Positions 12,601-37,800 of a stretch of 64,000 nt of DNA are shown piece by piece. Origin of the DNA: Liolophura sinensis (Eukaryota; Mollusca; Polyplacophora; Chitonida; Chitonidae). Positions within the stretch are counted from its first letter, which is position 1. Every line of letters begins with the position of its first letter. The stretch covers positions 3,786,501 to 3,850,500 of the forward strand of contig NC_088295.1 of NCBI RefSeq assembly GCF_032854445.1, in the 5' to 3' direction. Under the pieces are notes generated by a model. The model did not search any database, was not told the DNA's origin, and saw nothing but the letters and a program-made list of their open reading frames with translations. Both the position numbers and the translations under genes were made by a program.

Positions 12601-15600
12601 GCTGGGTCAGCAACCCGTGATGTTACAGAACGATGACATCTCTGCAAGTGTCGCCCGAGACACTTTGTATAGATTCCTGAATCGTACTCACCAGACAGGA
12701 GACATCCGCCTGTACACCCACCCCTCACTCGACTCTTCATCTGTGGGCGAATCGGTTGAAGTGATTTTGAAGGTGAATTTTTTTACTTCTTTTACATTGT
12801 CTCCCACACATGCGTGTCAGCAGTTTCCTACATTTGCCACTCATCTTAGTTCAATGTTTCCTTTCGTGTCTGTCCACAGTTTCCTACTCATGTTTGTCCA
12901 CAGTTTCCTACTCATGTGTGCCCACCGTCCCATACTCATGATTCTCCCTCAAGTTTCTGCAATTTCTCACTCAAGTTTCTGCAATTTCTCACTCACGTTT
13001 GTACAGTTTCTCACTCACGTTTGTACAGTTTCTCACGTTTGTACACAGTTTCTCACTTACAGACTTTACGCTTCCCTTCTTCAGCGATGATCATTTTACA
13101 TTCATGCTGTTTAGTTCTGTAAAAGAAAATAAAATACCATATCACATGTATATATGCAACGATAAATTATTCCACGTGAAATTTAAAAAGAATGCATTCC
13201 TATTTTTGTGATGTTGTGTATCGCAGTTCATAGTAAACAAATTGACGCACACTGAGAAAATAGAAAGCGCAGCCATGTTATCACTTTTAACCAGTCAAGG
13301 CCTCTTATTACTGCTGTTTCCGCTTACGTCACCCGAGCCCTGTTTAGCTATTCAACCATTTGTGTGTTGCTACGAGAGGCGCGACATTGTGTTTCCGATG
13401 GCTGTAACATGGCGCACCCTACGGCCTCGTGTGAACCGCTTATTAACTTTTGATTTATGTTTGCCAAGAATGTCAGAAAGAAAATGTCTTTTGCAGTTTG
13501 GGTCTATTTTCATCCTTCTTCCTTAACAACTCTTTTTATATTATTTCTTGATTAGATGCATTTTATAATATAACAGAAAAACATATCATAAATTGTTCTA
13601 CAGACCAGCGTGTACACCAAAAATCAGTTTCTCATGGGGGATAGAAAGGAAGGTAACAATGTCGCTGCTGTCCAGATGGGCTTTGTTTTTGAGGAGCTTC
13701 CCGACGATGACCGAGCGGTTCCTAACATTAGCTTGAAGCATGAGCTCGCTGTTCCCGTCCCAGAACAAGTCACCTTCAGGACCACAGTACCTGAATACAT
13801 TCCCCTGGATAGAGACAAGCTGCTCTACCATCGACTCGAACTGTCCTCCATCCGTTACAGCGCCATCATATACTTGAGGCCTTCTATAGCCAACACAGGG
13901 TACGAGGCCTTCTTCCGTTCCGGGAACTTCCCAACGGCTAAGACATATGATTACAGGACGGAGTCAGAACCTGTGGGACCGGGAAACGGTACTTTCAGAG
14001 CTGTGTGCCCAGGGAACACTCTACCGCTCCCAGGGACTATATATGTAGGACTTAAACCGAGACCTTTAGGTATTTCCATTCGCTGTTTTACCCTTAAGTT
14101 GGAAAGGAACTATAATTTGTACTACCACACTTGTTACTTAGTTTAGCATTACCTATAACTCCAACTCCTTGTTTAACAATAGCCACAGATTTAACTCCTT
14201 GTATATAGCCGTAGTTCACTTAATCAGTTTAACATTAGCCACAACATTAACACCTTGTATATAGCCGTAGTTCACTTAATGAGTTTAATACAACCCACAA
14301 CTTTAATACCTTGTATATAGCCGTAGTTCACTTAATGAGTTTAATACAACCCACAACTTTAATACCTTGTATATAGCCGTAGTTCACTTAATGAGTTTAA
14401 TACAACCCACAACTTTAATACCTTGTATATAGCCGTAGTTCACTTAATGAGTTTAACAATAGCCACAACTTTAACACCTTGTATATAGCCGTAGTTCACT
14501 TAATGAGTTTAATACAACCCACAACATTAACATCTTGTTTATAGCCGTAGTTCACTTAATGAGTTTAATACAACCCACAACTTTAACACCTTGTATATAG
14601 CCGTAGTTCACTTAATGAGTTTAACATTATTTATAATTTTCACTTCAGGTGCAGCGATAATTCAATTGCTCATTTTATCAAAGGTCACAACTATTAGGAT
14701 ATCATTTTATAACCGATTTATCGACAGTTCATTTATTTCACAGATCTTACTATTTCACAGATCTTACTATTTCACAGATCTTACTATTTCACAGATCTTA
14801 CTATTTCACAGATCTTACTATTTCACAGATCTTACTATTTCACAGATCTTAAGCACGCGAGGAGGCCGAATATGCCCGAAAGCCTGGAAGTGTATGAACC
14901 CATGTCTATGGATAGCGCGAATTTCAGTAAAATTATGGAGGCAAATTTCGACGTAGGTGTTGTGACGTTGGAGTGTAGCGCATGGGAGGAGGGTGCAGAT
15001 GAGTGGGACAGCGAGCTATGTGAGGTAGGCTGGAGAGGATGTCATCCTATTTACAGTGAACGATACAGAAATTTACACTCACACAAGCATTAACATCTCG
15101 TTCTCTCAAAAACTTCTCTCTTTCAATGTCCAGATTATCTTTCCAAGAGTTACATCCAAGGTTATTAAAATGTACATGTACAATAACAAGTAACGAAAAA
15201 CAGACCTTCAGAAGTGTTACATTTCTGATATATGTATGTATACTTGGGGCTTTACGTCGTACGTAACAGTTCTTCCGTCATATGACGAAGAGGAGTCATT
15301 AGGTATGTGTACATGTAATGTGTCTTCTTGTGTCAGGGCGAGTCCATGCAACCAAAGTGCTGCCGCCAGGGAAGTATCATACCGAAGACACCAGACATGA
15401 ACCCCCCCCCCCCCCCCGCCCTGTCACATTATACCGACACCGAACCAACCAGTCCTGCTCTAACCTCTAAGTGCTACACGACAATCGGTGCAGGAGAACG
15501 TACCATTTTTTAAAGTCTTTGATATGACTCAACCCGGGATTGACCAGAGGTCTCCCGACTTTGATTTATTTATTTATTTGATTGGTGTTTTACGCCGTAC

Positions 15601-18600: not shown

Positions 18601-21600
18601 TTCCTGTTCCTGTACAGCCAGCAATGGGGGAAAGCCAAAACCGAGGAGTGGCTCACATCATTCCTACTATCGTTTATAGAAAGCCTCTTCGTTATAGACC
18701 CTCTAAAGGTATGAGAAACTGCGTTATCTGAAACTGAATATCAGCAGTGCACAGTCAAGATTTTTTCTGAATATTTGGGGAGGAACCATGATGAAAGAAT
18801 TCACTTGTTATTGTTTATTTATTTATTTATTCCGTTTGGCTTTAATCCCATATTTAAGATTTCGACAGCTGACATGTTTTATGGATGAAGAAAGGTCAAA
18901 CATCGATCCTGAATCGGCTGGCTGTTATTAGTATACAAATGCGCTACGAAAATTGTGTTCTGTGAAAACGAGTTGTTCTTAATCGGGATCAATCTATGTT
19001 TGCACAGGTGCTTGTTGTTGCTGCTCTCTTTGCTATTTTCATTCGGAAGCCGGAAGAAAGTGCAAGTGAAGGATTTGACAAAGCGGAAATTAAAACTAGC
19101 CAGCCGGTTATGGGACTTACAGAAGGTAGGTTACTATTTAACCCTTCAGACAAATATTTCGTCCACTAATAATTGTTACTACATAATATACAATCACGAT
19201 CTAGTAGCCAGCTTTGATTACAGTTTGAGTTGGTTTGGTTACAGATGGAGAGCGGAAATCCATGGAGCCCTTGAGCGGAGAAGATCTGAAAAACGCGCAG
19301 GCGGCTAGACACAAGGAAACCAAAGCCTTCGGCGTCTTGCGAGAAATCATACTCTACATCATTTTCCTGTTTATAGTGTACACGATTGGGTACAGCAATC
19401 GGGACAACCGCGGCTTTAACTTCCATCAAAACATGCTACACACCATGATGACCCCTAAACAGACCATTGGTTTGACACAGGCGAGTCATGTCCTCATCCA
19501 AGCAAATCAACGTCCTCATAAATGTATGCCCTTTTCATACAGGTAAATCATCATCCTCGAAAAGGTATGTCCTCATCCATGTTAGTCATCGTCCTCATAA
19601 AGGTAAGTCATCATTCCCAACAGATATGTCCTCATCCAGGTAAGTCATCATCCTCGTTAAGGTATGCCCTCATCCAGGTAAGTCAAGTCATCATCCTCAA
19701 AAAGGCATGTCTTCATCCCGCTGTCATCATTCTCCCAAAGGTATGTCCTCATCCATGTAAGTCATCATCCTTATAATGGTATGTCCTCATCCAGGCAAGT
19801 CAACATCCTCATAAATGTATGCCTTCTCATTCTGCGGTGGGGGGGGGGGGGGGGGGGTATGGGCTTCGTGGCTCAGTTGGTTAGCGCGCTAGCGCAGTGT
19901 AGTGACCCATGAGCCTCTCACCAATGCGGTCTCTTTGAGTTCAAGTCCAGCTCAAGTTGGCTTCGTCTTCGGCCTTAAGTGGGAAGGTCTGGCAGCAACC
20001 TGCGGATGGTCGTGGGTTTTCCCCGGGCTCTGCCCGGTTTCCTCCCACCATAATGCTGGCCGCCGTCGTATAAGTGAAATATTTTTGGGTACGGCGTGAA
20101 ACACCAATCAAATAAATAAATAAATAAATTCTCATCCAGGTAAATCATCACCCTCATAATGGTATGTCCTTCTCATCCAAGTAAGTCATCATCCTTAAAA
20201 AGGCTTGTCCTCATCCAAGCAAACCAACGTCCTCATAAATGTATGCCTCTTCATCCAGGTAAGTCATCATCCTCAAAAAGGCATGTCCTCATCCAGGTAA
20301 GTTATCATCCTTAACAGATATGTCCTCATCCAGGTAAGTCATCATCCTTATAATGGTATGTCCTCATCCAGACAAGTTAACATCGTCATAAATGTATGCC
20401 TTCTCATCCAGGTAAGTCATCATTCTCAAAATGGCCTGTCCTCATCTAGGTAAGTCATCATCCTCATAACGGTATGTCCTCATCCAGGTAAGTCATCATT
20501 CTCAAAAAGGCATGTACTCATTCAGGTAAGTCATCATCCTCAACAGGTATATCCTCATCAAGGCAAGTTAACATCCTCATAAATGTGTGCCTTCATTGAG
20601 GTAGATCATCAGCCTCAACAGGTATACCCTCATTAAGGAATGTCATTATCCTCTCAAAGGTATATTATTCTCATCCAGATAAGTCAACCTCAACTAGTAT
20701 GTCCTCATCCAAGTACGTCATCATCCTCGTAAAGGTATGCCCTCATCCAGGTAAGTCATCATTCTCAAAAAGGTATGTCCTCATCCAGGTATGTCATCAT
20801 CCTCGTGAAGGTATGCCCTCATCCAGGTAAGTCTTCATCCTCAGCAGACATGTCCTCATCTAGGTAAGTGATCATCCTCATAAAGGTATGTCCTGCTCAT
20901 CCGGGTAAGTCATCATCCTCAACAGGCATATCTTCATCTAGGTAAGTCATACTCCTAATAAAGACATGTCATTCTCATCTCGGCAAGTCATCCACCTACA
21001 AACGGCATATCATCGTCATCCTACTCAATGCGTAATGGATTTGTTCTCATCCAAAACCCCGTTCAGACGGGCAAAGTTAAGCTGGTTTAAATCCGAAAGT
21101 GACTTGGAGCCAGTTTGACGTCGCTCGTGTGAACGCAAAGCGGGAGCATTTAATCCGGTTTAATTTTTTTCCACTGTGGCGACGTGGCTTCAAGCCATTT
21201 TCAGGACTTGGGCCAGTTTATCTGCGTCGTGTGAACGGTAACTGGATTGAATGCCTCGGATATGTCAGGATGACGTTGCAATTATTTGATTTTATTTATT
21301 TTATTGATGTTTTACGCCGTATTCAAGAATATTTCGCTTTACGACGGCGGCCAGCATTATGGTGGGAGGAAACCGGGCAATGCTCGGGGGAAACCCACGT
21401 CCATCCGCAGGTTGACGTTGCAATTACTAAATTGGCTCAAACGTGGCCGTGTGAAAGGACAAATGCCTGAAGTGGCTCAAAACCGGTTTGACCACATGGT
21501 TGTGTGAACGTACCCATTTTTACAACTGGTTACGATTTAAACGGTTTAAATTTTGGTCGCATGAACGTGGTATAAGTATATTCTGAGATACGAGATAAAG

Positions 21601-24237
21601 ATGTTTATCCTCCTGTAAAAATCTCAAATGTCAGGAATAAATTAAAGACTCTTGAGAAGAAATTGACCTTTTTGTTACCGCTTTCCAGGTCCACACCACA
21701 GAGACCTTTTTCCAGTGGCTGAATAAGACAGTCTTCCCAGCTTTATTTCAAGAAAACTATTACCAAGGCTCAAGGCGTCGTTGGTGGGAGAGGTATTATA
21801 TCCGAGACTGGCAGAATTACAGGGTGGGGCCACCCAGAATGCGCCAGGTTAGAAGTCCATCCAGTGAGTACAACGACAAGTTTTCTACACCCTGTGTGAA
21901 CAGCTTATGTAGTTTTCAGGTCATGCCTCGTAACGAAATGACGCTGTTGCCACTCAAAATTACTAGCTCTACGCTGAAACCATCCCATTGTATTAACGTG
22001 TACTATAAATAAGGCAGCACAGGCTTACCTGTATTCAAATGTCAACAACACTTATGAATAATAATCTTACAAAATGTCCATAAATTGTAACACCCACTTG
22101 ATTTCTGTTGCAGTTGAAATGTGTTTTAAGAAGATAATGGGAGAAACACCCTGTAATGACAGATACCATTTGTACCATCAGGAGGCCAAAGACTTCTGTT
22201 TAGGTTGGAAAGAACCGCCTTGCCCGGAAGAAGAATCCGTTTATCAGTTTACATCAAATGCTTGGAAATTCACTTCGTACACGGATGCTTTAAGCATGCC
22301 GTTGTTTGGCTACTACAACACCTACAGTGGAGGGGGCTACATTGCTGAGCTAGACGTCAACTTGGATGTGTCACAGAAGATCTTAGAGGAGCTGTTCTCT
22401 GAGCTGTGGGTGGACAGACAAACCCGCGCGGTAATCATTGAGTACACTGTGTTTAATGCCAACACCAACCTGTTTTGTTATGTTAACCTCATGGCGGAGT
22501 TTCCGGAAACCGGAGGTGTACTAACATACTACATCATCAGGCCGATCCGGATATACCAGCACACGGGAGCACTAGGCGCTTACATCTTCTTCAATGAAAT
22601 GATATTTGTTGTTGTCGTTTTCATAGCAGCGATCAAGGTCATGTGGAAGCTTCGGAGATTAGGATTTAGGTACTTTAGCGATTTCTGGCACATCAATGAG
22701 TTCTTCTGCCTGCTGACTTGCCTAGCCGCCATTGCAATTTATGTGGTTCGTGAGGTGATATCACGTCTGACCATGGCTAAGTTTCGGGAAAACCCTAAGC
22801 GTTATGTCAGCTTTTACAACATCACCATTTGGGACGAAGTCCTCGTCAACCTCGTAGGGCTTCTCAGCTTTATATGCACAGTGCGCATGATCAGAATCCT
22901 TGGTTACAGCAAGCGCTCTTCTGATCTCATGCAAGTGTTGATGAACGCAGGAAAGGACTTGTATTATTTCAGTATAATGTTTTTCTTGCTTTTCGCCCCT
23001 TTCGCCATTGTAGCCTTTGTGATCTTTGGGCCTGTTATTGAAGATTACCGCGATATGTTGGTAACCACGGCAACTTTAATCACGTGCATGATTGGACGAT
23101 CACCTTTCACGGAGATGAGGTTAATGGAGCCATTTTTCGCTCAGGTCTACTTTGCTTCATTCATCTTTTTTGAGGTATTTATTCTGTTGACCATGTTTCT
23201 GGCCATTTTGAACGAGAGTATCACTGCCGTGAGAGCTGAAGAAGAAGTGGACTACACACAACATGACATGCTAGACCTTTTGATAGAAAAGTTCAAAGGT
23301 GCCATAGGCTTGTTTCTTCCTAAGCGCCTAAAGCAGGTGGTGCAGGGTGGGTAGTGCTCGGAGTGAATTTGGTTTCACTGATTTTCCTGGTATTCGTACT
23401 TTTTTTTGGTAAACCTTTTATTCATTCATTCTCAAGTGATACTGTTTCAGCCGGGTGAGACCCACAGGAAATACATGTAGCCTACAATTGGATTAAATAA
23501 AAATTCGCCCGAAATCATAAAAATACAGCAAATATTAGTGATCTGTAAACCTTCTTCCTTTTAACATTAAGTACAGTTTTTTTTTCAAAACATGCTTTCA
23601 TAATATTTCTACAAATATACGGTGAAAACACCCTTGCCTCAGGTGCTATATTTTACTAATTCATATGCCGTGTTTATGCAAGACCGTGACCCTTTGTTTT
23701 CAAGGTCGTTCATGATACTCTTGCGAAAAATGAATAAATCTGGAGATTTTATGTCATTTTCCTCTCCACAGACTTGAGCAAAGAAGAACCTGCAAAAGAA
23801 CTTGCAAAAGAACCTGAAAAAGAAACATCATCGCCAAAGACTAAGAATCCAGACACAAAATTGGAAAGCGACTCCAGAAGGGATATACTTAAAACTGCTG
23901 CCGAAGTTTTATTCATGAAGAAGGTGCTAGAATCTAAACAGAAATCAAAACGAAAGGTATTGTATAAAAGGGCCGGTGCTTTGTATCGTCAAACGATTAT
24001 TCATTTGAAGGTATAAAAAGGAAACCCACAAAGAGGTTTAATCCTCTCGATATATCATTTCATTGCGTTTTACGATATACCATCTGATTATTCCAAACTG
24101 AGCAAATTACTAATTGGAGAGGATCGGCATATATATTTGTATGAAAGGCAAAAGACAAAAAAATTGGTCGATATACATTGTTTCTTTTTTTTTAGAGCAA
24201 GAAACACGAAGATCCGAACGGCTCAAGGCAAAGCTGA
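617..24237 (+). CDS. Polycystin-1-type receptor/channel with PKD repeats, REJ, GPS, PLAT and 11 TM segments
   Basis: This is a large plasma- or ciliary-membrane protein of the polycystin-1 family, about 2984 aa. Exons: 617-677, 3228-6456, 6685-6860, 7192-7365, 7667-7819, 8122-8246, 10110-10275, 10441-10652, 10810-10947, 11411-11507, 11910-12157, 12530-12772, 13604-14069, 14846-15024, 15960-16199, 16644-16814, 16968-17128, 17982-18708, 19008-19125, 19245-19480, 21689-21863, 22114-23346, 23772-23956, 24196-24237. All junctions keep phase and the coding total is 8955 nt. Order: signal peptide, PKD repeats (about 250-860), REJ/GAIN (about 860-1890), GPS (1868-1905), TM1 (1940-1959), PLAT (about 1982-2095), TM2-6, polycystin extracellular domain, TM7-11, charged tail. 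LRR, WSC and C-type lectin domains of vertebrate PKD1 were not seen. By family knowledge such proteins pair with PKD2-type subunits, and REJ-bearing members act on sperm. The exact subfamily (PKD1, PKD1L or REJ type) needs a tree. One intron, after exon 20, appears to use a GC donor. Confidence 0.92.
803..1055 (-). mobile_element. tRNA-derived SINE, family 1, complete with target duplications
   Basis: The element lies in minus orientation. Its A/T tail (tttatttatttatt) is at 803 and its tRNA-like head (box A region near 1030-1055) at the right. The 3' core gattggtgttttacgccgta is shared by all family-1 copies. It is bounded by an exact 11-bp target duplication, caacgtgtaga, at 792-802 and 1056-1066, so this is a relatively clean insertion. 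Confidence 0.85.
1167..1310 (-). mobile_element. SINE family 1, 5'-truncated copy
   Basis: The 3' core (tgattggcgttttacgtcgt) and the segment ending gcatccgcaggttgctgcca are recognisable, but the tRNA-related head is missing. It lies about 100 bp from the complete copy and in the same orientation. Confidence 0.75.
1318..1660. repeat. AT-rich tandem tract, ~35-bp unit
   Basis: Units containing gatttatagagtacatata and atatggcctgta recur with a spacing near 35 bp. Copies are uneven, about six of good quality. Confidence 0.7.
1976..2420. repeat. 41-bp minisatellite, about 11 units
   Basis: Each unit contains ggatgatcagtgccctctat followed by cattcaaatcttat. Units vary by one to three bases and small indels. 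It lies in intron 1 of the polycystin gene. The three reading frames across it are open only because of the repeat. Confidence 0.9.
3018..3073 (+). pseudogene. 56-bp exact copy of a polycystin exon 2 segment inside intron 1
   Basis: Bases 3018-3073 are identical to 3987-4042 (start gtacgtttaccacattggg, end gcttccaatgaagtg). The source encodes the last strand of the first PKD repeat (TFTTLGREQIAVNASNEV). Flanking bases are unrelated, so this is a short exon fragment duplicated about 0.97 kb upstream rather than a functional exon. Frame and splice signals do not support its inclusion. Confidence 0.85.
3228..6456 (+). CDS. Polycystin exon 2: PKD-repeat ectodomain in one giant exon
   Basis: A single 3229-nt exon encodes about residues 21-1097. 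Several PKD (Ig-like) repeats are visible from their W-x-FG-D-G type motif and the later H-x-Y/F...G-x-y/f strand: YHWTVNG near residue 256, EFGDGK near 431, DYGDGAE near 524, WDFGDQTP near 623, DFGNGQ near 708 and NFGDDSE near 808. Many N-x-S/T sequons fit an extracellular glycoprotein. The end of the exon begins the REJ-type region. It splices in phase 2 (atcag|gtacac) to exon 3, giving VDIRCKVNC. Confidence 0.9.
6685..12772 (+). CDS. Polycystin exons 3-12: REJ / GAIN region
   Basis: Ten exons (see the gene entry for coordinates) encode residues about 1097-1674. The REJ hallmark NYPPYNGTCGITP occurs near residue 1200 at the end of exon 4, matching the conserved N-x-PP-NG-C-x-I-x-P signature of REJ modules. 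The rest is alpha-helix-rich sequence (for example exons 7, 9 and 11), typical of the GAIN-like region before a GPS. Exon 7 must end at 10275 (gtgg|gtgaca) rather than at the earlier GT to keep frame with exon 8. Introns hold the 12-bp array (8418-9830), a small MITE-like hairpin (10979-11117) and a perfect palindrome (11646-11683). Confidence 0.85.
6893..7120. repeat. Tandem repeat, ~20-bp unit, polycystin intron 3
   Basis: Units such as atgctttcctgtgctatcca recur about ten times with spacing of 18-21 bp. Confidence 0.85.
8418..9830. repeat. 1.4-kb array of a 12-bp unit (aatcccacacta)
   Basis: About 117 units of the 12-mer aatcccacacta and near variants (aatgaatccc, aatcccactcta) fill polycystin intron 6. 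Unit length is a multiple of three, which makes long open frames on both strands (Asn-Pro-Thr-Leu on plus, Val-Gly-Phe-Ser on minus). Higher-order blocks recur: a run with ccatgccgaatcccac appears near 8960 and again near 9450. Confidence 0.93.
10979..11117. mobile_element. Small MITE-like hairpin element
   Basis: Two ~39-bp arms form an imperfect inverted repeat. The left arm contains gaacgtagtttgtcatgctc and ends caccaaga; the right arm begins tcttggtg and contains gataaactacgttttatttc. Arms agree at roughly 34 of 39 positions around a ~55-bp loop. It lies in polycystin intron 9. Confidence 0.65.
11646..11683. repeat. Perfect 38-bp palindrome
   Basis: The 19-base half tatcaagatatcagaagat is followed directly by its exact reverse complement. 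There is no loop. It lies in polycystin intron 10 between exons at 11507 and 11910. Confidence 0.95.
12790..13060. repeat. Irregular tandem repeat, ~20-28-bp unit, polycystin intron 12
   Basis: Units containing acagtttctcactcacgttt recur about ten times. On the gene strand they resemble a pyrimidine tract ending in AG, but they lie more than 500 bp from the next exon and do not contain its acceptor. Confidence 0.75.
13604..16199 (+). CDS. Polycystin exons 13-15: GAIN end, GPS motif and first TM helix
   Basis: Exons 13604-14069, 14846-15024 and 15960-16199 encode residues about 1675-1969. The GPS is split between exons 14 and 15. The C-x2-W...W pattern (CSAWEEGADEWDSELCE) comes from exon 14 and TVCSCDHP from exon 15 (Cys 1901 and 1903, His 1905). 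The canonical cleavage tripeptide H-L-T/S reads H-P-V here, so autoproteolysis is doubtful. TM1 is residues 1940-1959, followed by the basic stop ARRKD. The exon 14 acceptor is the last of seven tandem copies. The intron between exons 14 and 15 is filled by two nested SINEs. Confidence 0.87.
14150..14640. repeat. ~58-bp minisatellite, about 8 units, polycystin intron 13
   Basis: Units contain ccttgtatatagccgtagtt and cacttaatgagtttaa. Internal copies are nearly identical, which suggests recent expansion. Confidence 0.9.
14741..14857 (+). repeat. Seven tandem copies of the exon 14 acceptor (17-bp unit)
   Basis: The 17-mer ttactatttcacagatc is repeated so that cagatctt starts at 14741, 14758, 14775, 14792, 14809, 14826 and 14843. 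The last AG (14845) is the acceptor that keeps frame with exon 13. The array therefore contains seven near-identical 3' splice sites, each with its own pyrimidine stretch and a branch-like ttactat. Confidence 0.9.
15240..15880 (-). mobile_element. SINE family 3 interrupted by a family 1 SINE
   Basis: The family-3 body runs from the 3' core (tttacgtcgtacgtaacag) at about 15247 to its box-B region (cccgggattgaccagagg) at 15533-15551. Its tRNA-like head resumes after the inserted SINE (gactttgaggcgaacgatct, 15847-15866). A poly-C run is inside. A similar body fragment lies at the end of the window (63818-63960). Confidence 0.75.
15565..15843 (-). mobile_element. SINE family 1 nested in a family 3 SINE
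   Basis: A complete minus-oriented copy with tail at 15565 and head ending at about 15826, bounded by exact 11-bp duplications cccgactttga at 15554-15564 and 15844-15854. It lies in polycystin intron 14. Confidence 0.88.
16644..17128 (+). CDS. Polycystin exons 16-17: PLAT/LH2 domain
   Basis: Exons 16644-16814 and 16968-17128 encode residues about 1970-2079. The PLAT beta-sandwich signature is clear: YLYIITVYTGMRLGAGT, then VGFAVVGDDSDTGLRLL, then LQYMRIWHDNSGQGSMASWF and a HKVVIEDIQ strand. The domain closes in exon 18 with FNCGRWL. In this family the PLAT lies in the first cytoplasmic loop and binds lipid or protein partners. The junction after exon 17 is phase 2 (agacg|gttagg), a slightly weak donor chosen because it alone keeps frame with exon 18. 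Confidence 0.9.
17129..17981 (+). other. Intron 17 of the polycystin gene
   Basis: This is an 853-bp intron between the PLAT exon and the TM2-5 exon. No tandem array, SINE head or coding exon was recognised. It looks like ordinary AT-rich intronic DNA. Confidence 0.6.
17982..19480 (+). CDS. Polycystin exons 18-20: TM2 to TM6
   Basis: Exons 17982-18708, 19008-19125 and 19245-19480 encode residues about 2080-2440. Hydrophobic helices are seen at about 2148-2167 (CCLSLLFLAML), 2191-2211 (YISVICLLIVTPVNILIVW), 2268-2291 (YIAWVVIFLCVTISAFF), 2317-2336 (VLVVAALFAIFIR) and 2393-2412 (LREIILYIIFLFIVYTIGYS). Together they fit TM2-TM6 of a polycystin-1. The last helix opens the channel-like half, and the following segment (MMTPKQTIGLTQ) begins the extracellular polycystin domain. 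Exon 20 must end at 19480 for frame, which places a GC dinucleotide at the donor (acacag|gcgagt). Confidence 0.88.
19481..19486 (+). promoter_or_regulatory. Non-canonical GC 5' splice site of polycystin intron 20
   Basis: The donor reads CAG|GCGAGT. It is the only position that joins exon 20 (phase 0) to exon 21 (phase 0, VHTTETFFQWLNK) in frame. GC-AG introns are a known minor class. It sits at the edge of the 19490-21010 array, whose units carry the stronger CAG|GTAAGT. Confidence 0.65.
19487..21010 (+). repeat. 1.5-kb array carrying consensus donor CAG|GTAAGT, seeded at the exon 20 splice site
   Basis: Units of about 38-40 bp contain cctcatccaggtaagtcatc and catcctcaaaaaggtatg. The array begins at the exon 20 boundary, where the aligned bases are CAG|GCGAGTCATG. 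A dozen or more units retain an exact AGGTAAGT on the gene strand; others carry GCAAGT or GTATGT. A family 1 SINE splits the array at about 19860-20130. Confidence 0.9.
19860..20130 (+). mobile_element. SINE family 1, full-length, plus orientation
   Basis: The head shows tRNA promoter boxes (gtggctcagttggttagc for box A, gagttcaagtcc for box B). The body ends ggtgtt-type core as acggcgtgaaacaccaatca, followed by an aaataaataaataa tail. A poly-G run precedes it. It inserted inside the donor-bearing array. Confidence 0.88.
21057..21575. mobile_element. Possible non-autonomous DNA element with weak terminal inverted repeats
   Basis: The left end (cccgttcagacgggcaaagt) and the reverse complement of the right end (ccacgttcatgcgaccaaaa) share a cgttca core and partial similarity. 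Related phrases (gtgtgaacg, ggtttaaat) recur through the element. It carries an inserted SINE fragment. The assignment is tentative. Confidence 0.4.
21285..21412 (-). mobile_element. SINE family 1, 5'-truncated, with 14-bp target duplication
   Basis: The copy has the 3' core and ends at gcaggt. It is flanked by exact duplications tgacgttgcaatta at 21271-21284 and 21413-21426, so the truncation occurred at insertion. Confidence 0.85.
21689..23346 (+). CDS. Polycystin exons 21-22: polycystin (TOP) domain and six-helix channel
   Basis: Exons 21689-21863 and 22114-23346 encode residues about 2441-2909. The first carries the conserved start of the extracellular polycystin domain (FQWLNKTVFPALF, RDWQNY, GPPRMRQVR). 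The second carries paired cysteines, YNTYSGGGYI, FTVFN-like strands, and then TM7 (about 2654-2676), TM8 (2692-2711), TM9 (2741-2762, ending VRMIRIL), TM10 (2783-2805), a pore helix (VTTATLITCMIGRSPFTEM) and TM11 (2843-2865, ILLTMFLAILNES). In PKD2-type channels the filter is LGD; here the aligned residues are IGR, with Arg at about 2827. The exon must end at 23346 (cagg|gtgggt) to keep frame; reading through would stop at 23354. Confidence 0.92.
23772..24237 (+). CDS. Polycystin exons 23-24: charged cytoplasmic tail and stop
   Basis: Exons 23772-23956 and 24196-24237 encode the last ~75 residues. The tail is rich in Lys, Glu and Pro (DLSKEEPAKELAKEPEKE) and ends HEDPNGSRQS before TGA at 24235-24237. 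No clear coiled coil like that of vertebrate PKD1 is evident, though the Lys/Glu pattern is helix-prone. Both junctions are in phase with exon 22. Exon 24 follows a strong polypyrimidine tract (ctttttttttag). Confidence 0.75.
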
Positions 24238-24745
24238 ACAGTCTCATTTATGCAGTGACTTATGGTAGCCCAGAGAGTTAGGCCAGAAGCGACAACCTTA
24301 ACTGTCCAAGGTTTTGTACATTGGCTTATGGTAACTCAGGCAGACATTCCTGACTGAAGTGACATCTCACCAAAATTATCCAGAACTTGTGCAACGCTTC
24401 ATGCAGAAGTAAAATCTGATATTCTCACCAAAATCGCGCGGACAATCGTCTTGCTCAAATCGCCCAAAGCTCATACAATGACGTGGTACCTCAAGCAGAC
24501 AGTCAAGATACCATTCATTTATCCCGACAGACTGCATGGTGGTAAACAAATCTTACCCTCGCCGATGGAGATCGTAGACCACTCCTTGTCAACAACACAG
24601 CCTTTCTCAGCACAAGGTTTGCTCAGTCATCGCTACAGACGCTCTGATTAACCAGCGGTCTTCTACCGAGTGCGAACTCACATCAGTTACACACTCATTA
24701 CTCACCGTACATATATCCATGCTGCCATTTTTATAGATCATCCCC

Positions 24746-24751
24746 AATAAA
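24746..24751 (+). promoter_or_regulatory. Candidate polyadenylation signal of the polycystin gene
   Basis: AATAAA lies about 510 bases after the stop codon of gene 1 and is the first canonical hexamer downstream of it. It would give a 3' UTR of roughly 530 bases. Cleavage position cannot be confirmed from sequence. Confidence 0.45.
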
Positions 24752-27718: not shown

Positions 27719-28844
27719 TTAAAAGCCGAGATTCTTGGTGTTGTGCTGAGTTGATATGTTCAGCAGGTTTTGCATCAAAGTGGTGTTATCAAGGGCCAAG
27801 GCAGGGGTCGACAAACCACTGGAGTCTTTGGCATCCCCAGAACCGTCCAGGGGAGGTAACTGTGTTGCCATAGAAGTGAGTGTGTCCATCGTGTTCTGAT
27901 CCACAGTGAAGTCGCCTGATGAATTAGGGTGCTCCAGTAGCAGATTGTCCGTTCCTACCCCAGGTAGCTGAACGCAGGCTGGATTTCCAGGACCATTAAA
28001 GGTTAACAGGCTGAGGTTTTCGGCTAATGCCCCAGATGTTGCCATTATGGAATCTACTGAAACATTGCTAATGGGGTCTTGCACCCCGGAAGTGGGATCT
28101 CCAGTTGCAGTAGACAAAGGTTCCACAGAGGTGCTCTTGTTGAGCTGGGCTGTTGATGTGGGTATGGTTTTGTCTACTATGGCTGGTAGAGTGTGAGGCT
28201 TGTTCATAGTATTGAACTCCGAAGACGTGTTCATAGAGTTACACTCCAAAGGCGTGTTCATAGAGTTACACTCCAAAGGCGTGTTCATAGAGCCACACTC
28301 CGAAGGCGTGTTCATAGAGCTACACTCCAAAAGCGTGTTCATAGAGCTACACTCCAAAGGCGTGTCCATAAAGCTACACTCCGAAGGCGTGTTCAAAGAG
28401 CTACACTCCAAAGGCGTGTTCATAGAGCTACACTCCGAAGGCGTGTCCATAAAGCTACACTCTGAAGGCGTGTCCATAAAGCTACACTCCGAAGGCGTGT
28501 TCACACAGCTACACTCTTGCACCACCACAGACAGTAGCTCACACACAACCTCAGGGCTTTGTAAAGGTGACGCAATAGTCTTTTCTGTCTCTTGAGCAAC
28601 TGAGATAAGCAGTGCCTCTGCTGAGGTCTCTAATGTCACAGATTTTACTTCTGCAGCCCCTCCTGGGGGTGGGCAGACATCTTGCTCCGGTATGATGTCC
28701 TCAGGCTGGAGGGCTGAATCAGAGTCAAGGGGCAGAATATGACCAGACTGAAGATCACCGGTCTGCTCCTCTATGGCGGGGGCCTTTCTAATGTGGTCAA
28801 CCTTAGAGGTCACACTAAAATCATCTGACTTCTCAACAATATCA
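27719..28844 (-). CDS. STK31 homologue exon 28: repetitive Ser/Thr-rich tail
   Basis: The last exon encodes residues about 1047-1421 and ends with TAA at 27721-27719. It begins SDIVEKSDDFSV in phase with exon 27, after a good acceptor (ctttatgtttcag). Apart from the 9-residue repeats at about residues 1155-1260 (units like SECSFMDTP), the sequence is low-complexity, acidic and Ser/Thr-rich, with a run of predicted-disorder character (SAQLNKSTSVEPLSTATG). No known domain was recognised. The tail is much longer than that of vertebrate STK31. Confidence 0.8.
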
Positions 28845-31800
28845 CTGAAACATAAAGAGAAATTCTTGGTAGGAAGCAAAGTAATCAGTATTTCAGCATT
28901 ATTTTCACCTGTTACCATTGTTGTTCAATGCCACTCGACGAATTTTTCACACATTCAGTAGTATGGAAGTTAGTGGTGCGGGTGGAGGAAACCAGTGTGC
29001 CCAAGGTAATCCACAGACCTTGGGCATATCACTGGTAAACTTTCACACCTGTTGTATACACATGTCCACACCTTACTGTCAGATGACAAGTGGTATTCAA
29101 CAAATGTTAGTCTGTCCTACATGTGTCCCCTACAGCTTATCGTCACGGAGGCCACACTAACAGTGACACATGGAGAACCTACACATTCTCTGCCCAAGGC
29201 TATGCTCAGACACAAGTTGAAAACTACAAGCAAAAAACATAAAACATATACTTTTGCACCCGTCATTTCTGTGCTAGCAAAACGTATCCCAGCTTCTCAT
29301 GATTCAAATGCACAGGTCATTTCAGCATTTCTGTCACTATGGACTACCAGTACCAGAGAAATATGGCAGAGATTATTTGGCTTGGGGGCAATCTATCAAA
29401 GCATAAGACAGCTGAAATTGAGGTCTCTAGTACAAACTGGGCTGTGTTCTTGTAACAATTTAAGTCCTTCTTTGGGTTCACTCAGTGTTTGTATTTCCAT
29501 TTGATTTTCTTGAAAAATTCACTGTTGAGGCTTGACATTTCAAAGTGGTGACTCAAAGAATATCTATCAATGACCCTCCCCCCCCCCCCACCCCCCACCA
29601 AAAGGTCAAAGCCAATGCATTGGTGACCACTTATTTTCCCCTGTAGTTTAGTAACAATTTGTCATATCCAGATATAACTACACAAGCCAAGTTGGGATAA
29701 GCCAGGTATTATGGATGGCATGTCAGCAGTGTGAGTACCCTCCCCCTCCATCTTACCTGCATCTGTCCCCAAGGGACTGTGTCTCCACATGAAGGAGGTC
29801 AGGGATGGTGTTGCTGAAGTATTCGGCATGCAACACCTCCCGGGCTATCACACGGCTGGAAGGCTGCCCCAAGAGTAGGTTGTGGATGACGTGACGCACA
29901 TCCTGACTCTGCCACACATATGAATACTTGCAGTTCCAACTATGCTGTTTTACATCACAATCCTTTCACTGACCCTCTTATACAAATTAATCAAGAAGGT
30001 CTTGTCAAAATGTAAATGGCCTTTAAAACTAAAAGATTATCCAGTACTTGTTGGTATAGTGCTAAGATTGGTGAAACACATCCAGGAAAACAGTACCAGA
30101 TAAAACACTTTCTTTCAGATGAAGCTTCACTTCAAAGTTGACCAACTATTTTACTCATATAAAAAAACTAGCATATATTTTACAAAGTGAAATCAATGTA
30201 CTGCTGTATTTTGCTTTCTGATACCAAAATTCAGTCTACTAGAAACTCACAACCTGGATACTCACAATAAGCAAGTCTGTGATGACAGGTATGCCGGCTT
30301 CATTTGTGCTCAGTTTAGCGTGAGGCATATGAATCTAGGGACAAAGAGAACAAGCTACAAGAATCTAGCGTAAACAGATCAAGCTACATGAATCTAGGGA
30401 ACAGAGATCAAGCTACAAGAACCTTGGGAGCAGAGATCAAGCTACAAGAATCTAGGGTAAAGAGATCAAGCTACAGGAATCTAGGGTAAAGAGATCAAGT
30501 TACAGGAATCTAGGGAAAAGAGATCAAGTTACATGAATCTAGGGAGCAGAGATCAAGCTACAAGAATCTAGGGTAAAGAGATCAAGCTACAGGAATCTAG
30601 GGAAAAGAGATCAAGCTACATGAATCTAGGGAGCAGAGATCAAGCTACAAGAATCTAGGGAACAGAGATCAAGCTACAGGAATCTAGGGTAAAGAGATCA
30701 AGCTACAGGAATCTAAGGAAAAGAGATCAAGCTACATAAATCTAGGGTAAAGAGATCAAGCTACAAGAATCTACGGAGCAGAGATCAAGCTACATGAATC
30801 TAGGGAGCAGAGATCAAGCTACATGAATCTAGGGAAAATAGATCAAGCTACATGAATCTAGGGAGCAGAGATCAAGCTACATGAATCTAGGGAACAGAGA
30901 TCAGCTACATGAATCTAGGGAACAGAGATCAAGCTACATGAATCTAGGGAGCAGAGATCAAGTTACATGAATCTAGGGAAAAGAGATCAAACCACAGGAA
31001 TCTAGATAACAGATATCAAGGTACCAGAATCTAGAAAAACTAAACTACATGAATCTGACATTAAGGTAGATAAATCTAAGGAACACATATTGAGGTACAC
31101 GAACACGTCCAAGTGAATTAGTGCTTTGGGATTAGCGTCGTACTTAACAATTTTTCAGTCATATGATGACGAAGGAATCCTTAGAGTGGATGTAATCTAC
31201 CTTCTTGTTGCAGGACGGATTTCCACCGCTCTTTAATCTAGTGCTGCTTCACTGAAACGCCTTACCGAAGGCAAGTAAGCTGCCCCACCCAAGCCATTAT
31301 ACTGGTCAACCAGTCATTGGACTCTCCCCTTCATGCTGAATGCCAAGACAGGAAGTTACAACTTCATCTTTTAAGGTCTTAGGTGTGACTCGACCCAGGA
31401 TTGACACTCTATGTACCGCTCCCCAAGCGGACACTCTACCAACTGTGCTATCAGGGCCAGTCTCTAGGGAACAGAGATCTACATGTAGGTACACCACTTT
31501 AGGTAATCGAAACGAAGGTACGGGAGTCTAGCGAAAACAAATTGAGGTATGTGAATCTAGGGAACAGAGATAAAGGCACATGAATCATGGGAACACTTTG
31601 AGATACATGTACGTTTATCAACGGAACACAGTTCGAGATAGATCAATCTAGGAAACAGAGTTCGAGGTATTAAAGTTGATCTAGGGAACAGAAGTCAAAC
31701 AAGTATTAAATGAACTGAATGGTAGAAAATGACAGAGAGAGCATGGATCCACCCCACCCATATCATGTCAGTTTATCCCTTAGCTTGCAAAACAGTAGCT

Positions 31801-34800
31801 TATACAACATGATCCTCAGTGATGACAGCTTTATGTACAATATAACCCTCAGTGACAACAGCTTTATATATACAACATGACTCTCACGGAGAGCTTTACA
31901 TACAACATGACTCTTACTGATGACAGCTTTATATATACAACATGACTCTTACTGATGACAGCTTTATATACAACATGACTCACTGATGACAGCTTTATAT
32001 ACAGCATGACCCACAGTGACGACAGTTTATATATACAACATGACTCTCATTGACAGCTTTTCATACAACACGACTCCCACTGATGACAGCTTTACATACA
32101 ACATGACTCTCTCTGATGACAACTTTATATACAACATGACTCACTGATGACAGCTTTATATACAGCATGACATACAGCGACGACAGCTTTATATACACAA
32201 TGTGACTCATGGACAGCTTTACATACAACATGACTCACTGATGATAGCTTTTCATACATGACTCTCTCTGATGACAACTTTATATACAACATGACTCTTA
32301 CTGATGGCAGCTTTATATACAACATGACTCACTGATGACAGCTTTATATACAGCATGACTCTCAATGATGACAACTTTATATACAGCATGACTCTCACTG
32401 ATGACAGTTTTATATACAGCATGACTCACTGATGACAGTTTTATATACAGCATGACTCATTGATGACAGCTTTATATACAGCATGACTCACTGATGACAG
32501 CTTTACCTACAGCATGAATCTCAGTGATGACAGCTTTATATACAACATGACTCTCATTGAAGACAGCTTTATATACAACATGACTCTCATTGATGACAGC
32601 TTTATATACAACACGACTCCCACTGACGACAGCTTCATACACAGCATGACCCCCAGTGACGACAGCTTCACACACATCATGACCCCCAGTGACAACAGCT
32701 TCATACACAGCATGACCCCCAGTGACGACAGCTTTATGCACAGTGACCCCCAGTGACAACAGCTTCATACACAGCATGACCCCCAGTGACGACAGCTTTA
32801 TGCACAGTGACCCCCAGTGACAACAGCTTCATACACAGCATGACCCCCAGTGACGACAGCTTTATGCACAGTGACCCCCAGTGACAACAGCTTCATACAC
32901 AGCATGACCCCCAGTGACAACAGCTTCATACACAGCATGCCCCCCAGTGACGACAGCTTATACAACACGATTTTGAATGACGCCTGCTTACCCACAGACA
33001 CAGGAGACCCAGGTGGAAGAGATCAGAGCTGGGGGTAGGGGGTTGACTGGGGTCCTCTTCAGGGGCCTTGAAGTGTAACCCAGCATTTGTGATGAACCAA
33101 GACCGAGAGGGATCAGCCTGCAAGCAAAAGTAAGGTTATCAAATGTGTTTAGAACCGTTCTGAGAGATAGCTTTCTGTATTTACCACAGCTGTTAGATGC
33201 TCCAATCTATACTAAGGCCAGGGTCTGACATCTGATAGCATGGATCATCCCCTGGTTGTGTATGACATAGGTACACTCACCCAAGGTCTGACATCTGACA
33301 GCACCGATCATCCCTTGGTTGTGTATGCTGTAGGTACACTCATCCTGGGTTTATATACGTCTGACAGCACCGATCATCCCCTGGTTGTGTATGCCGTAGA
33401 TACACTCATCCAGGGTTTATATACGTCTGACAGTACGGATCATCCCCTGGTTGTGAATGCCGTAGGTACACTCACCCAGGGTTTATATACGTCTGACAGT
33501 ACGGATCATCCCCTGGTTGTGTATGACATAGGTACATTCACCCAGGGTCTGACATCTGACAGCACCGATCATCCCTTGGTTGTGTATGCCGTAGGTACAC
33601 TCATCCAGGGTTTATATACGTCTGACAGCACCGATCATCCCCTGGTTGTGTATGCCGTAGATACACTCATCCAGGGTTTATATACGTCTGACAGTACGGA
33701 TCATCCCCTGGTTGTGTATGCCGTAGGTACACTCATCCAGGGTTTATGGATCATCCGCTGGTTGTTTACGCCAGATCATCTGGATATTCTGTATCAGATT
33801 TATGATTGTGTACTTACTGCTGGCCATCAGATCATCTAGATATTCTGTATCAGTTTTGTGATTGTGTACTTACTGCTGGCCATCAGATCATCTGGATATC
33901 CTGTATCAGCTTTGTAATTGTGTACTTAGTGCTGGCCATCAGATCATCCGGATATTCTGTATCAGTTTTGTGATTGTGTACTTACTGCTGGCCATCAGAT
34001 CATCTGGATATTCTGTATCAGCTTTGTAATTGTGTACTTACTGCTGGCCATCAGATCATCAAGATATTCTGTATCAGCTTTGTAATTGTGTACTTACTGC
34101 TGGCCATCAGATCATCTAGATATTCTGTATCAGTTTTGTGATTGTGTACTTACTGCTGGCCATCAGATCATCTGGATATTCTGTATCAGCTTTGTAATTG
34201 TGTACTTACTGCTGGCCATCAGATCATCTGGATATTCTGTATCAGTTTTGTGATTGTGTACTTACTGCTGGCCATCAGATCATCTGGATATTCTGTATCA
34301 GTTTTATGATTGTGTACTTACTGCTGGCCATCAGATCATCTGGATATTCTGTATCAGCTTTGTAATTGTGTACTTACTGCTGGCCATCAGATCATCTGGA
34401 TATTCTGTATCAGTTTTATGATTGTGTACTTACTGCTGGCCATCAGATCATCTGGATATTCTGTATCAGTTTTATGATTGTGTACTTACTGCTGGCCATC
34501 AGATCATCTGGATATTCTGTATCAGCTTTATGATTGTGTACTTACTGCTGGCCATCAGATCATCTGGATATTCTGTATCAGTTTTATGATTGTGTACTTA
34601 CTGCCGGCCATCAGATCATCTGGATATTCTGTATCAGTTTTGTAATTGTGCACTTACTGCTGGCCATCAGATCATCTGCATATTCTGTATCAGCTTTATG
34701 ATTGTGTACTTAGTGCTGGCCATCAGATCATCTGGATATTCTGTATCAGTTTTGTGATTGTGTACTTACTGCTGGCCATCAGATCATCTGGATATTCTGT

Positions 34801-37800
34801 ATCAGTTTTATGATTGTGTACTTACTGCTGGCCATCAGATCATCTGGATATTCTGTATCAGCTTTGTAATTGTGTACTTACTGCTGGCCATCAGATCATC
34901 TGCATATTCTGTATCAGTTTTATGATTGTGTACTTACCACTGGCCATCAGATCATCTAGATATTCTGTATCAGTTTTGTGATTGTGTACTTACTGCTGGC
35001 CATCAGATCATCTGCATATTCTGTATCAGTTTTATGATTGTGTACTTACCACTGGCCATCAGATCATCTAGATATTCTGTATCAGTTTTGTGATTGTGTA
35101 CTTACTGCTGGCCATCAGATCATCTAGATATTCTGTATCAGTTTTATGATTGTGTACTTACTGCTGGCCATCAGATCATCTAGATATTCTGTATCAGTTT
35201 TGTGATTGTGTACTTACTGCTGGCCATCAGATCATCTGCATATTCTGTATCAGTTTTGTGATTGTGTACTTACTGCTGGCCATCAGATCATCCGGATATT
35301 CTGTATCAGCTTTGTAATTGTGTACTTAGTGCTGGCCATCAGATAATCTGGATATTCTGTATCAGTTTTGTGATTGTGTACTTACTGCTAGCCATCAGAT
35401 CATCTGGATATTCTGTATCAGCTTTGTGATTGTGTACTTAGTGCTGGCCATCAGATAATCTGGATATTCTGTATCAGTTTTGTGATTGTGTACTTACTGC
35501 TGGCCATCAGATCATCTGCATATTCTGTATCAGCTTTATGATTGTGTACTTACTGCTGGCCATCAGATCATCCGGATATTCTGTATCAGCTTTGTAATTG
35601 TGTACTTAGTGCTGGCCATCAGATCATCTGGATATTCTGTATCAGTTTTATGATTGTGTACTTACTGCTGGCCATCAGATCATCTGGATATTCTGTATCA
35701 GTTTTGTGATTGTGTACTTACTGCTGGCCATCAGATCATCTGGATATTCTGTATCAGTTTCATGATTGTGTACTTACTGCTGGCCATCAGATCATCTAGA
35801 TATTCTGTATCAGTTTTGTGATTGTGTACTTACTGCTGGCCATCAGATCATCCGGATATTCTGTATCAGCTTTGTAATTGTGTACTTAGTGCTGGCCATC
35901 AGATCATCTGGATATTCTGTATCAGCTTTGTGATTGTGTACTTACTGCTGGCCATCAGATCATCTGGATATTCTGTATCAGCTTTGTAATTGTGTACTTA
36001 CTGCTGGCCATCAGATCATCTAGATATTCTGTATCAGTTTTGTGATTGTGTACTTACTGCTGGCCATCAGATCATCTGGATATTCTGTATCAGTTTTGTA
36101 ATTGTGTACTTACTGCTGGCCATCAGATCATCTGGACATTCTGTATCAGTTTTGTGATTGTGTACTTAGTGCTGGCCATCAGATCATCTGGATATTCTGT
36201 ATCAGTTTTGTGATTGTGTACTTAGTGCTGGCCATCAGATCATCTAGATATTCTATATCAGTTTTGTGATTGTGTACTTACTGCTGGCCATCAGATCATC
36301 TAGATATTCTGTATCAGTTTTGTGATTGTGTACTTACTGCTGGCCATCAGATCATCTGGATATTCTGTATCAGTATTGTAATTGTGTACTTAGTGCTGGC
36401 CATCAGATCATCTGGATATTCTGTATCAGTTTTATGATTGTGTACTTACTGCTGGCCATCAGATCATCTGGATATTCTGTATCAGTTTTATGATTGTGTA
36501 CTTACTGCTGGCCATCAGATCATCTAGATATTCTGTATCAGTTTTATGATTGTGTACTTACTGCTGGCCATCAGATCATCTAGATATTCTGTATCAGTTT
36601 TATGATTATGTACTTACTGCTGGCCATCAGATCATCTGGATATTCTGTATCAGTTTTATGATTGTGTACTTACCACTGGCCATCAGATCATCTAGATATT
36701 CTGTATCAGTTTTATGATTGTGTACTTACCACTGGCCATCAGATCATCTAGATATTCTGTATCAGTTTTGTGATTGTGTACTTACTGCTGGCCGTGAGAA
36801 ATCCAGCACCGCAAGTTGTGCGACTTTACCCTCTGTTATCAGGACAGTCTGAGGAGACAGAGCGCCGTGCGTTATCCCTGCCTCGTGAAGGGCACAAAGA
36901 CCTTCTGTCACACAGCGCAGGATCTTCTGTATCAGCTGAGGAAGACAGATAGACAGCAAGTAATTAGCACACATAACTCAACATTTTCTGGGGTAAAAAT
37001 AGGAACCTTTTGTTTCATGGGCCCTGTGCAGAATACACAGTGAAAACACGATAATAGCAATGACACTTGAAGATGGTACACAGAAGCCTCTCACCAATGT
37101 GGTCGCTGAGAGTTCAAGTCCAGCTCATGCTCTCAGCAACCTGCAGATGGTTGTGGGTTTCCCCCGGGCTCTGCTCGGTTTCCTTCTACCATAATGCTGG
37201 TCGCCGTCGCATAAGTGAAATATTGTTGAGTACAGCATAAAACACCAATCAACTAGATAAATAAATCTATAAATCAGAGAAGGTTACAATCAAACAATGA
37301 TGTACACAGAAAATAACTTAGGCACAATGGTTGTAAGGCAAAAAGTGACAGCTTACCCATGGTTTTAAATCCTCGCGTTCCACAAAATCCAATAACGGAA
37401 GCCCAGAGGCCTGAGTCTGGACATAAACTTGCTTTTGATTCTGTATAGAACAAAATGTATTAGACAAGGAACTAAGGTTATACCTAGGTAACATGGCTGT
37501 TCCATAAATTTGAGCAATAAAACACTTTTCTTAACTCACTTTTCTCTTTCTTGATTACAGCCTGTACCAAGTTATAATTTGGAATTTTGTATTTGATGAA
37601 GTACTTGTCTATGAAACAGCCAACGCATTCACGCAGCCCGAGACTGACCTGGCTTCTAAAGGGACTACCCATATGAAACAGCCAGAGCATCCACGCAGCC
37701 CGAGACTGACCTGGCTTCTAGAGGGACTATCCATATGAAACAGCCAGAGCATCCACGCAGCCCGAGACTGACCTGGCTTCTAAAGGGACTACCCATATGA

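Follow-up and report, generated by a model that had tools for sequence, protein, structure and literature searches.

We found four tandem repeat arrays lying across exon-intron boundaries of two genes in a 64-kb stretch of the genome of the chiton Liolophura sinensis (contig NC_088295.1, positions 3786501-3850500; hereafter, the window). In each array, the end unit holds a splice site of the gene and the other units repeat that site within the intron. These arrays are very probably minisatellites of the type called "mirages" in lancelets; on this reading, a duplication would have straddled a boundary by chance, grown later and been tolerated via its exon-proximal copy. New here are the mollusc case, a multi-gene count against a null expectation and a dependence on copy number. 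The first gene, on the + strand, combines PKD and REJ domains with a polycystin domain and channel, and is thus polycystin-1-like. The second, on the - strand, encodes a protein with Tudor and kinase-like domains and is comparable to STK31; its kinase was absent from Pfam matches on read-through frames and was seen only after splicing. Exons in the window were called by gene prediction, with dynein exons anchored by Pfam as the training set. The genome assembly (609,464,459 bases in 632 contigs) was published under the name Liolophura japonica (accessible part of PMC11068029), and the species name has since been corrected to L. sinensis (PMC12441733). The four arrays and their exons are as follows.

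Array (a), 14734-14851, + strand: 17-bp unit in 6.9 copies by Tandem Repeats Finder (TRF), 100% matches, in the polycystin-1-like gene
Exon with its acceptor in array (a), 14846-15024, + strand: from the predictor, phase 1
Array (b), 19481-21020, + strand: diverged array of a 38-bp unit, about 30 units by TRF rows
Exon before array (b), 19245-19480, + strand: ends CAG/GC, phase 0, GC donor at 19481-19482
Array (c), 36793-33772, - strand: 56-bp unit in 54 copies by TRF
Kinase exon whose donor lies in array (c), 36786-36935, - strand: peptide HGALSPQTVLITEG...LDFSRPA
Array (d), 31034-30329, - strand: 29-bp unit in 24 copies by TRF
Exon 26 of the second gene, with its acceptor in array (d), 30266-30334, - strand: IHMPHAKLSTNEAGIPVITDLLI, 69 nt, phase 0 at either end

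The first-pass annotation of this DNA had proposed four arrays with a real exon-intron boundary in an end unit, and TRF together with reading of the sequence confirmed all four. The exon-proximal unit holds an acceptor in (a) and (d) and a donor in (b) and (c), and the arrays comprise approximately 7, 30, 54 and 24 units in order, in agreement with the copy numbers annotated for (a) and (d). In array (a), the acceptor TTTCACAG/ATCTTA (slashes mark exon-intron boundaries or, in peptides, exon joints) falls in the final unit, with its AG at 14844-14845 and six exon bases within the array. This acceptor is in phase with the upstream exon for three candidate donors; we took the upstream exon to end at 14069/14070, while the predictor chose 13988. 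In array (c), the first unit reads GGCCAGCA/GTAAGT at 36786/36785 (GT at 36785-36784), with eight exon bases in the array, and the protein spliced across it aligns to twitchin kinase with an offset of one residue at the joint. The array contains 45 GTAAGT, the real one included; the 54 donor copies annotated here therefore hold as units, while intact donor copies number approximately 45. In array (d), the last unit reads CCCTAG/ATTCAT at 30335/30334 (AG at 30336-30335), six exon bases lie in the array, and the AG is intact in all 24 units scored (48/48 positions). At (a), (b) and (c), the predictor placed the boundaries, but it missed the exon at (d); the kinase alignment skips this segment, and the exon is called from frame and kinase-domain spacing.

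Of the four, array (b) fits least tightly. Its exon ends at 19480 as CAG/GCGAGTCAT, with a GC donor, and the unit has only CAG, three exon bases, in common with the exon. TRF started the array at the eighth intron base, and the wrap-around alignment left the junction of the array unplaced, although the boundary matches the units by eye (CAG/GTAAGTCAT). The array was reported in three TRF rows (19488-19614, 3.3 copies; 19591-19821, 6.0 copies; 20131-20950, 21.5 copies) and contains 12 matches to CAGG[TC][AG]AG[TC] including the real site, ten of them perfect CAGGTAAGT (CAG/GTAAGT). The joint spliced from 19480 to 21689 across it is gapless at the junction in a PKD2L1 alignment. An insertion at approximately 19838-20130, with a poly-G run and GGCTTCGTGGCTCAGTTGGTTAGCGC at its start and AAATAAAT repeats at its end, splits the array; it presumably resembles a short interspersed nuclear element.

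As a null model for such coincidences, a seed of unit length was dropped at random in a gene before expansion, since only the seed needs to straddle a boundary. The gene models hold 82 splice sites, fewer than the roughly 100 annotated for the two genes. For 15 arrays of at least three copies, uniform seeding in the window gives an expectation of 1.75 straddling arrays; four of the 15 straddle (P(≥4) = 0.087; P(≥3) = 0.25). The window by itself is no proof of the non-randomness that had been suggested for it. Since it was not significant alone, we took a sample of dynein heavy chain genes, comprising 29 regions of 10 kb (290 kb) set from Pfam coordinates with the arrays unseen. The first set consisted of 18 regions (L001-L018), and the second, of 11 regions, was fetched after the first had been analyzed; nine of its ten places are other regions of genes in the first set, plus a small contig, and it omits a number of dynein genes, some of them compact. 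Exon prediction was anchored on Pfam matches, and 716 splice sites were used, of which 456 were anchored and the rest had a coding score above 10 bits; predicted exons with neither property were excluded. Filtering further for exons that lie within arrays changed nothing, with 716 sites before and after. Arrays were counted when they had at least three copies and a unit of at least 10 bp.

The dynein sample supports non-randomness. Ten of its 36 arrays straddle a splice site (seven donors, three acceptors), whereas 2.0, 3.2 and 4.2 were expected when the exonic part was limited to 20 bases, to 40 bases or not at all (P = 2e-5, 8e-4 and 0.006, respectively). Explicit random placement gave an expectation of 3.46 (P = 0.002), and assuming 25% or 50% more splice sites than were modeled left P at 0.0035 or 0.011. 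All ten straddling arrays have 81-99% of their length on the intron side, and straddling arrays can run to kilobases. Among the 36 arrays, none lies in an exon and none spans a confident one. Nearness to exons as the sole cause of the excess was rejected on the distances of the remaining arrays: 3, 5, 4, 3 and 11 arrays lie 0-20, 21-50, 51-100, 101-200 and more than 200 bp from a site, where 2.3, 3.3, 5.2, 8.0 and 13.8 were expected, such that 8 arrays versus 5.6 expected fall within 0-50 bp. An array in L012 (3737-4362) that stops 1 bp before an acceptor was counted as intronic.

Of these ten arrays, gapless alignment to paralogs was obtained at the junctions of those in L013 and L026, as well as at that of a 2.2-copy array in L015 (2210-2336), which straddles a confirmed donor and was counted only in the class below three copies. 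The unit consensus includes exon flank in L023 (CCGCATGAATACAG/GTATGG), L026 (GTCGTCTCACACAG/GGTGGG) and L027 (TCATCTCCCCTGAT/GTAAGT). In L017, L023 and L025, the predictor put the following exon in the wrong place. In L023, the correct one starts outside the array at TTTTCAG/GTCTGG (TTCTTTTCAG/GTCTGG) and gives the joint ANRMNT/GLEKL, as in the paralog L022. In L017, the next exon starts at TTTTCTAG/GTTTGTGTTTGAGGG; the upstream half of the joint matches paralogs, and the downstream half, FVFEGRDI, presumably fits dyneins. The exon at the L025 donor ends in TDTQ, comparable with NDTQ in L029. Partial alignments make the L025 acceptor and the sites in L012 and L027 plausible. The array in L017 (8185-8809) has a 31-bp unit that corresponds approximately to the final 28 bases of the exon followed by GTA.

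The excess depends on copy number. Of the arrays with fewer than three copies, 1 of 25 straddles a splice site against 2.2 expected (three exonic ones set aside); for 3-10 copies, the count is 3 of 19 against 1.6; and for at least ten copies it reaches 7 of 17 against 1.6 (P = 0.0005). The lowest and highest classes differ (Fisher P = 0.004), and straddling arrays have more copies than intronic ones (P = 0.006), in a post hoc trend on small numbers (11 straddlers). Arrays that carry a splice site thus reach more copies than purely intronic arrays do. Because the excess lies at ten or more copies and none is seen below three, growth or retention is favored over seeding at splice sites. Targeted seeding would have duplications begin at splice sites, primed by AG/GT, by polypyrimidine bases or by DNA damage coupled to splicing, much as the first-pass annotation had suggested with slippage or template switching primed at AG/GT. 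The overall excess of straddling arrays speaks for it, and so does L017, where the exon has AAGTC some 28 bases before the junction and another AAGTC overlaps the donor, such that microhomology could have set the unit in this one case. However, the duplications below three copies, which stand nearest to fresh seeds, are unenriched, and the exonic part of the arrays ranges from 6 to 69 bases as called, so no breakpoint is fixed at the splice site. We therefore regard targeted seeding as distinctly unlikely.

Chance straddling followed by growth would have proceeded as follows. A local tandem duplication with a unit of 17-125 bp (17-56 bp in the window; 28-125 bp in the dynein sample) would by chance have straddled an exon-intron boundary and copied the splice site, along with 3 to about 40 bases of exon, into the intron; the units of the arrays carry such copies of coding sequence. 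Unequal exchange or replication slippage may later have raised some arrays to tens of copies. The exon-proximal copy keeps its usual relation to the exon, and the mRNA would be unchanged if that copy is used, the intron-side copies being spliced out. Straddling arrays would be tolerated because the exon-proximal copy still yields normal mRNA. To judge from published cases, the other copies would be ignored because the choice is made by position and exon definition, not by strength alone. The three arrays in the dynein sample that lie wholly within confident exons (3/64) each have fewer than three copies, although in the window an in-frame array of 11 copies sits in an open frame. One further idea, speculative and with a small chance of being right, is that expansion rather than seeding is coupled to co-transcriptional recognition of splice sites, for instance through stalled polymerase, R-loops or binding of small nuclear ribonucleoproteins. 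If true, splice sites would be foci at which the tandem repeats of animal genomes expand.

Several points weigh against chance straddling followed by growth. In three of the ten dynein arrays the call is imperfect. The donor of L003 was probably called one unit too far, the likely site (CTCAAA/GTAAGTCTGCC) being the one in the preceding unit, still inside the array; the decoys of L024 are decayed; and in L012 (site at 3061) the units contain the exon piece, but the real TTTCAG is CTTGAT in the decoy consensus; the array (1652-3097) may be a silenced, homogenized decoy field, or the acceptor may have been gained only in the last copy. A strict count without these three gives 7/36 (P = 0.035), and P rises to 0.085 or 0.16 with 25% or 50% extra splice sites. 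The first dynein set by itself shows 4 of 22 arrays straddling versus 1.88 expected (P = 0.11, 40 exon bases). The copy-number trend was found after the fact. A longer life of straddling arrays through protection from loss was considered and rejected; it is unsupported, since unit identity does not differ from that of intronic arrays (P = 1.0 overall; 0.22 for at least ten copies). Finally, use of the exon-proximal copy is an inference from reading frame, homology and published cases. The window, the first set and the strict count with 1.5 times the splice sites are each compatible with plain neutrality, under which seeds are uniform, straddling arrays are tolerated and the excess reflects chance or incomplete exon models. 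Against such an account stand the 29 regions taken together (P = 0.0008 with 40 exon bases; 0.006 with no limit), the second set, in which 6 of 14 arrays straddle versus 1.31 expected (P = 0.001 or 0.006 with the same limits), and the arrays of at least ten copies. Neutrality without any bias is rather unlikely on these counts.

The annotation had also foreseen that these arrays create fields of decoy splice sites, and this was upheld. Sites scoring above 3 in a splice model anywhere in an array were compared with the real one. In 6 of 14 arrays a decoy outscores the real site, and in 8 of 14 none does. In array (b), the real donor scores 7.1, and 35 of 53 donor-like sites (insertion excluded) score higher, the best at 12.8; in array (c), where the real donor scores 5.2, all decoys (44/44) are within 1 bit of it or above. 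The same holds for 6/6 decoys in (a) and 5/25 in (d). The conservation of decoys was scored, with the real copy excluded, in 11 of 16 arrays; L003 was included with its probably misplaced donor, and array (b), L012_1652, L012_3737, L015_2210 and L024 were left out. The AG of acceptor decoys is intact at 136/136 positions from four arrays (rest of the unit, 97%), and the GT of donor decoys at 237/262 (rest of the unit, 94%); these positions are not independent, since the units share ancestry. The decoys therefore show no consistent inactivation and no consistent constraint.

A system with the same anatomy is found in intron 7 of the human coagulation factor VII gene (F7), where the first of many nearly identical 37-bp repeats contains the natural donor. 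Normally only the most upstream donor of the repeats is used. When this donor is mutated, exon skipping and use of downstream cryptic donors follow, and no functional protein is made. The chiton arrays likewise appear to have the natural donor in the most upstream repeat, as placed by homology for (b) and (c) and by paralogs for L013 and L015. F7 is one vertebrate locus, experimentally studied, and concerns donors only. It also bears on the earlier suggestion of selection for splice-site redundancy, under which extra copies of a site would buffer mutation or raise splicing fidelity. Such selection might account for the GC donor of (b) amid higher-scoring sites and for the intact AG of the acceptor decoys. 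However, the GT of donor decoys is conserved slightly less than the rest of the unit, the L012 array has its decoy AG replaced in the consensus, and the downstream copies in F7 fail to rescue the mutated first donor. Selection for redundancy is very unlikely.

The annotation knew of no standard name for such arrays, but a term exists. Lancelet mirages are minisatellites spanning exon-intron boundaries, described in the accessible parts of two reports from the globin genes BflGb6 and BflGb9 (PMC3087553) and from Adh, troponin C and PGBD5 (PMC3902484). In these texts, either 5' or 3' boundaries are affected, many but not all units have AG/GT, the unit measures 10-160 bp, regular splicing is reported to be unaffected, and Adh3 and BflGb6 vary in length. 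The chiton arrays agree on each structural point. The repeat unit spans the boundary and includes exon sequence in (a), (c), (d) and the dynein arrays (in (b) only three exon bases); both kinds of boundary are affected (two donors and two acceptors in the window; seven and three in the dynein sample); many units, not all, keep AG/GT, with the L012 decoys lacking AG; and all unit lengths fall within 10-160 bp. They differ in that the lancelet cases were, in the same texts, described gene by gene (with six and three units in two BflGb6 haplotypes), whereas the chiton arrays occur in a mollusc, have up to 54 units, make up 10 of 36 arrays in the dynein sample and are known from the sequence of one assembly. 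A literature search that took in few subscription papers found no report of splice-site-straddling arrays in molluscs. The accessible part of a study of intronic minisatellites in earthworm metallothionein reports no splice-site location for them (PMC12783039).

Tandem duplication that copies splice signals is also the basis of the intron-gain model of Rogers (1989), for which potato RdRp, ATP2A1 and fission yeast cases have been described (accessible part of PMC4974935); human tandem repeats at exon-intron boundaries may likewise form new introns, as stated in the accessible part of PMC2812944. Applied here, a duplicated exon piece containing AGGT would have given birth to the intron, and the array would be the new intron. 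Units often have CAG/GT with exon sequence on the left, as this model requires. However, an intron so formed runs from the GT of the first copy to the AG of the last, whereas in L023 and in the introns with (c) and (d) the other splice site lies outside the array. The model also expects a paralog without the intron. The exon piece copied in L023 encodes NRMNT, and the predicted exon of the paralog L022 ends at the same residues; together with the acceptor outside the array, this indicates, in this one case, that the array is younger than both the exon sequence and the intron. Intron birth is highly improbable as the origin of these arrays, and the introns appear to have existed before them.

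If the excess holds genome-wide, about one-quarter of the intragenic minisatellites in this chiton would lie on a splice site (from 10/36 in the sample). The spliceosome would then be selecting the exon-proximal copy among many similar ones, and the arrays would provide natural multi-copy tests of position, exon definition and strength. A genome-wide excess would also tie a few lancelet genes and human F7 to a broader bias in growth or retention.

The window is rich in arrays, which occupy 16.7 kb of its 64 kb compared with 11.8 kb of the 180 kb that make up the first dynein set. Two of those that do not straddle share introns with (c) and (d), and RRM exons were predicted ahead of the Tudor and kinase exons.

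Non-straddling array, 33231-33747, no strand: 66-bp unit by TRF, in the same intron as (c)
Non-straddling array, 31801-32959, no strand: 33-bp unit by TRF, sharing an intron with (d), some 30 bp from the donor at 32992
Predicted RRM exons, 62998-62932, 60270-60195 and 58005-57904, - strand: gene prediction, with PF00076 on the joined peptide

An array at 37610-38170 (62-bp unit) was a candidate fifth case, as the predictor had placed an exon (37648-37540) with its acceptor inside it; it was rejected because the kinase frame joins 38256 straight to 37440 in phase 0 (PVEAVLLSK/NQKQVYVQTQ). Another array, at 3151-3207 (ATTGTTTTTCAGAT in four copies, a 14-bp acceptor-like unit), stops approximately 20 bp short of the acceptor at 3228 and was left uncounted. 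This acceptor belongs to a large PKD/REJ exon (open frame 3152-6514).

No matches were obtained when the window was scanned against Rfam or for tRNAs with ARAGORN. The RRM exons (57904-62998, - strand) precede the Tudor and kinase exons, which share their strand (second span 47555-52602, - strand), and together they may form a single gene for an RRM-Tudor-kinase protein, a combination that is, to our knowledge, unusual. Downstream of the kinase exons, an 11-copy in-frame minisatellite of 27 bp (28216-28516, - strand; ECSSMNTPS-like) lies within an open frame of 401 codons. A lancelet origin of the DNA was considered and rejected: a search for the GFP family had no match, although such a result does not establish absence, and elsewhere in this genome eight molluscan haemocyanin domains stand in a row in one gene.

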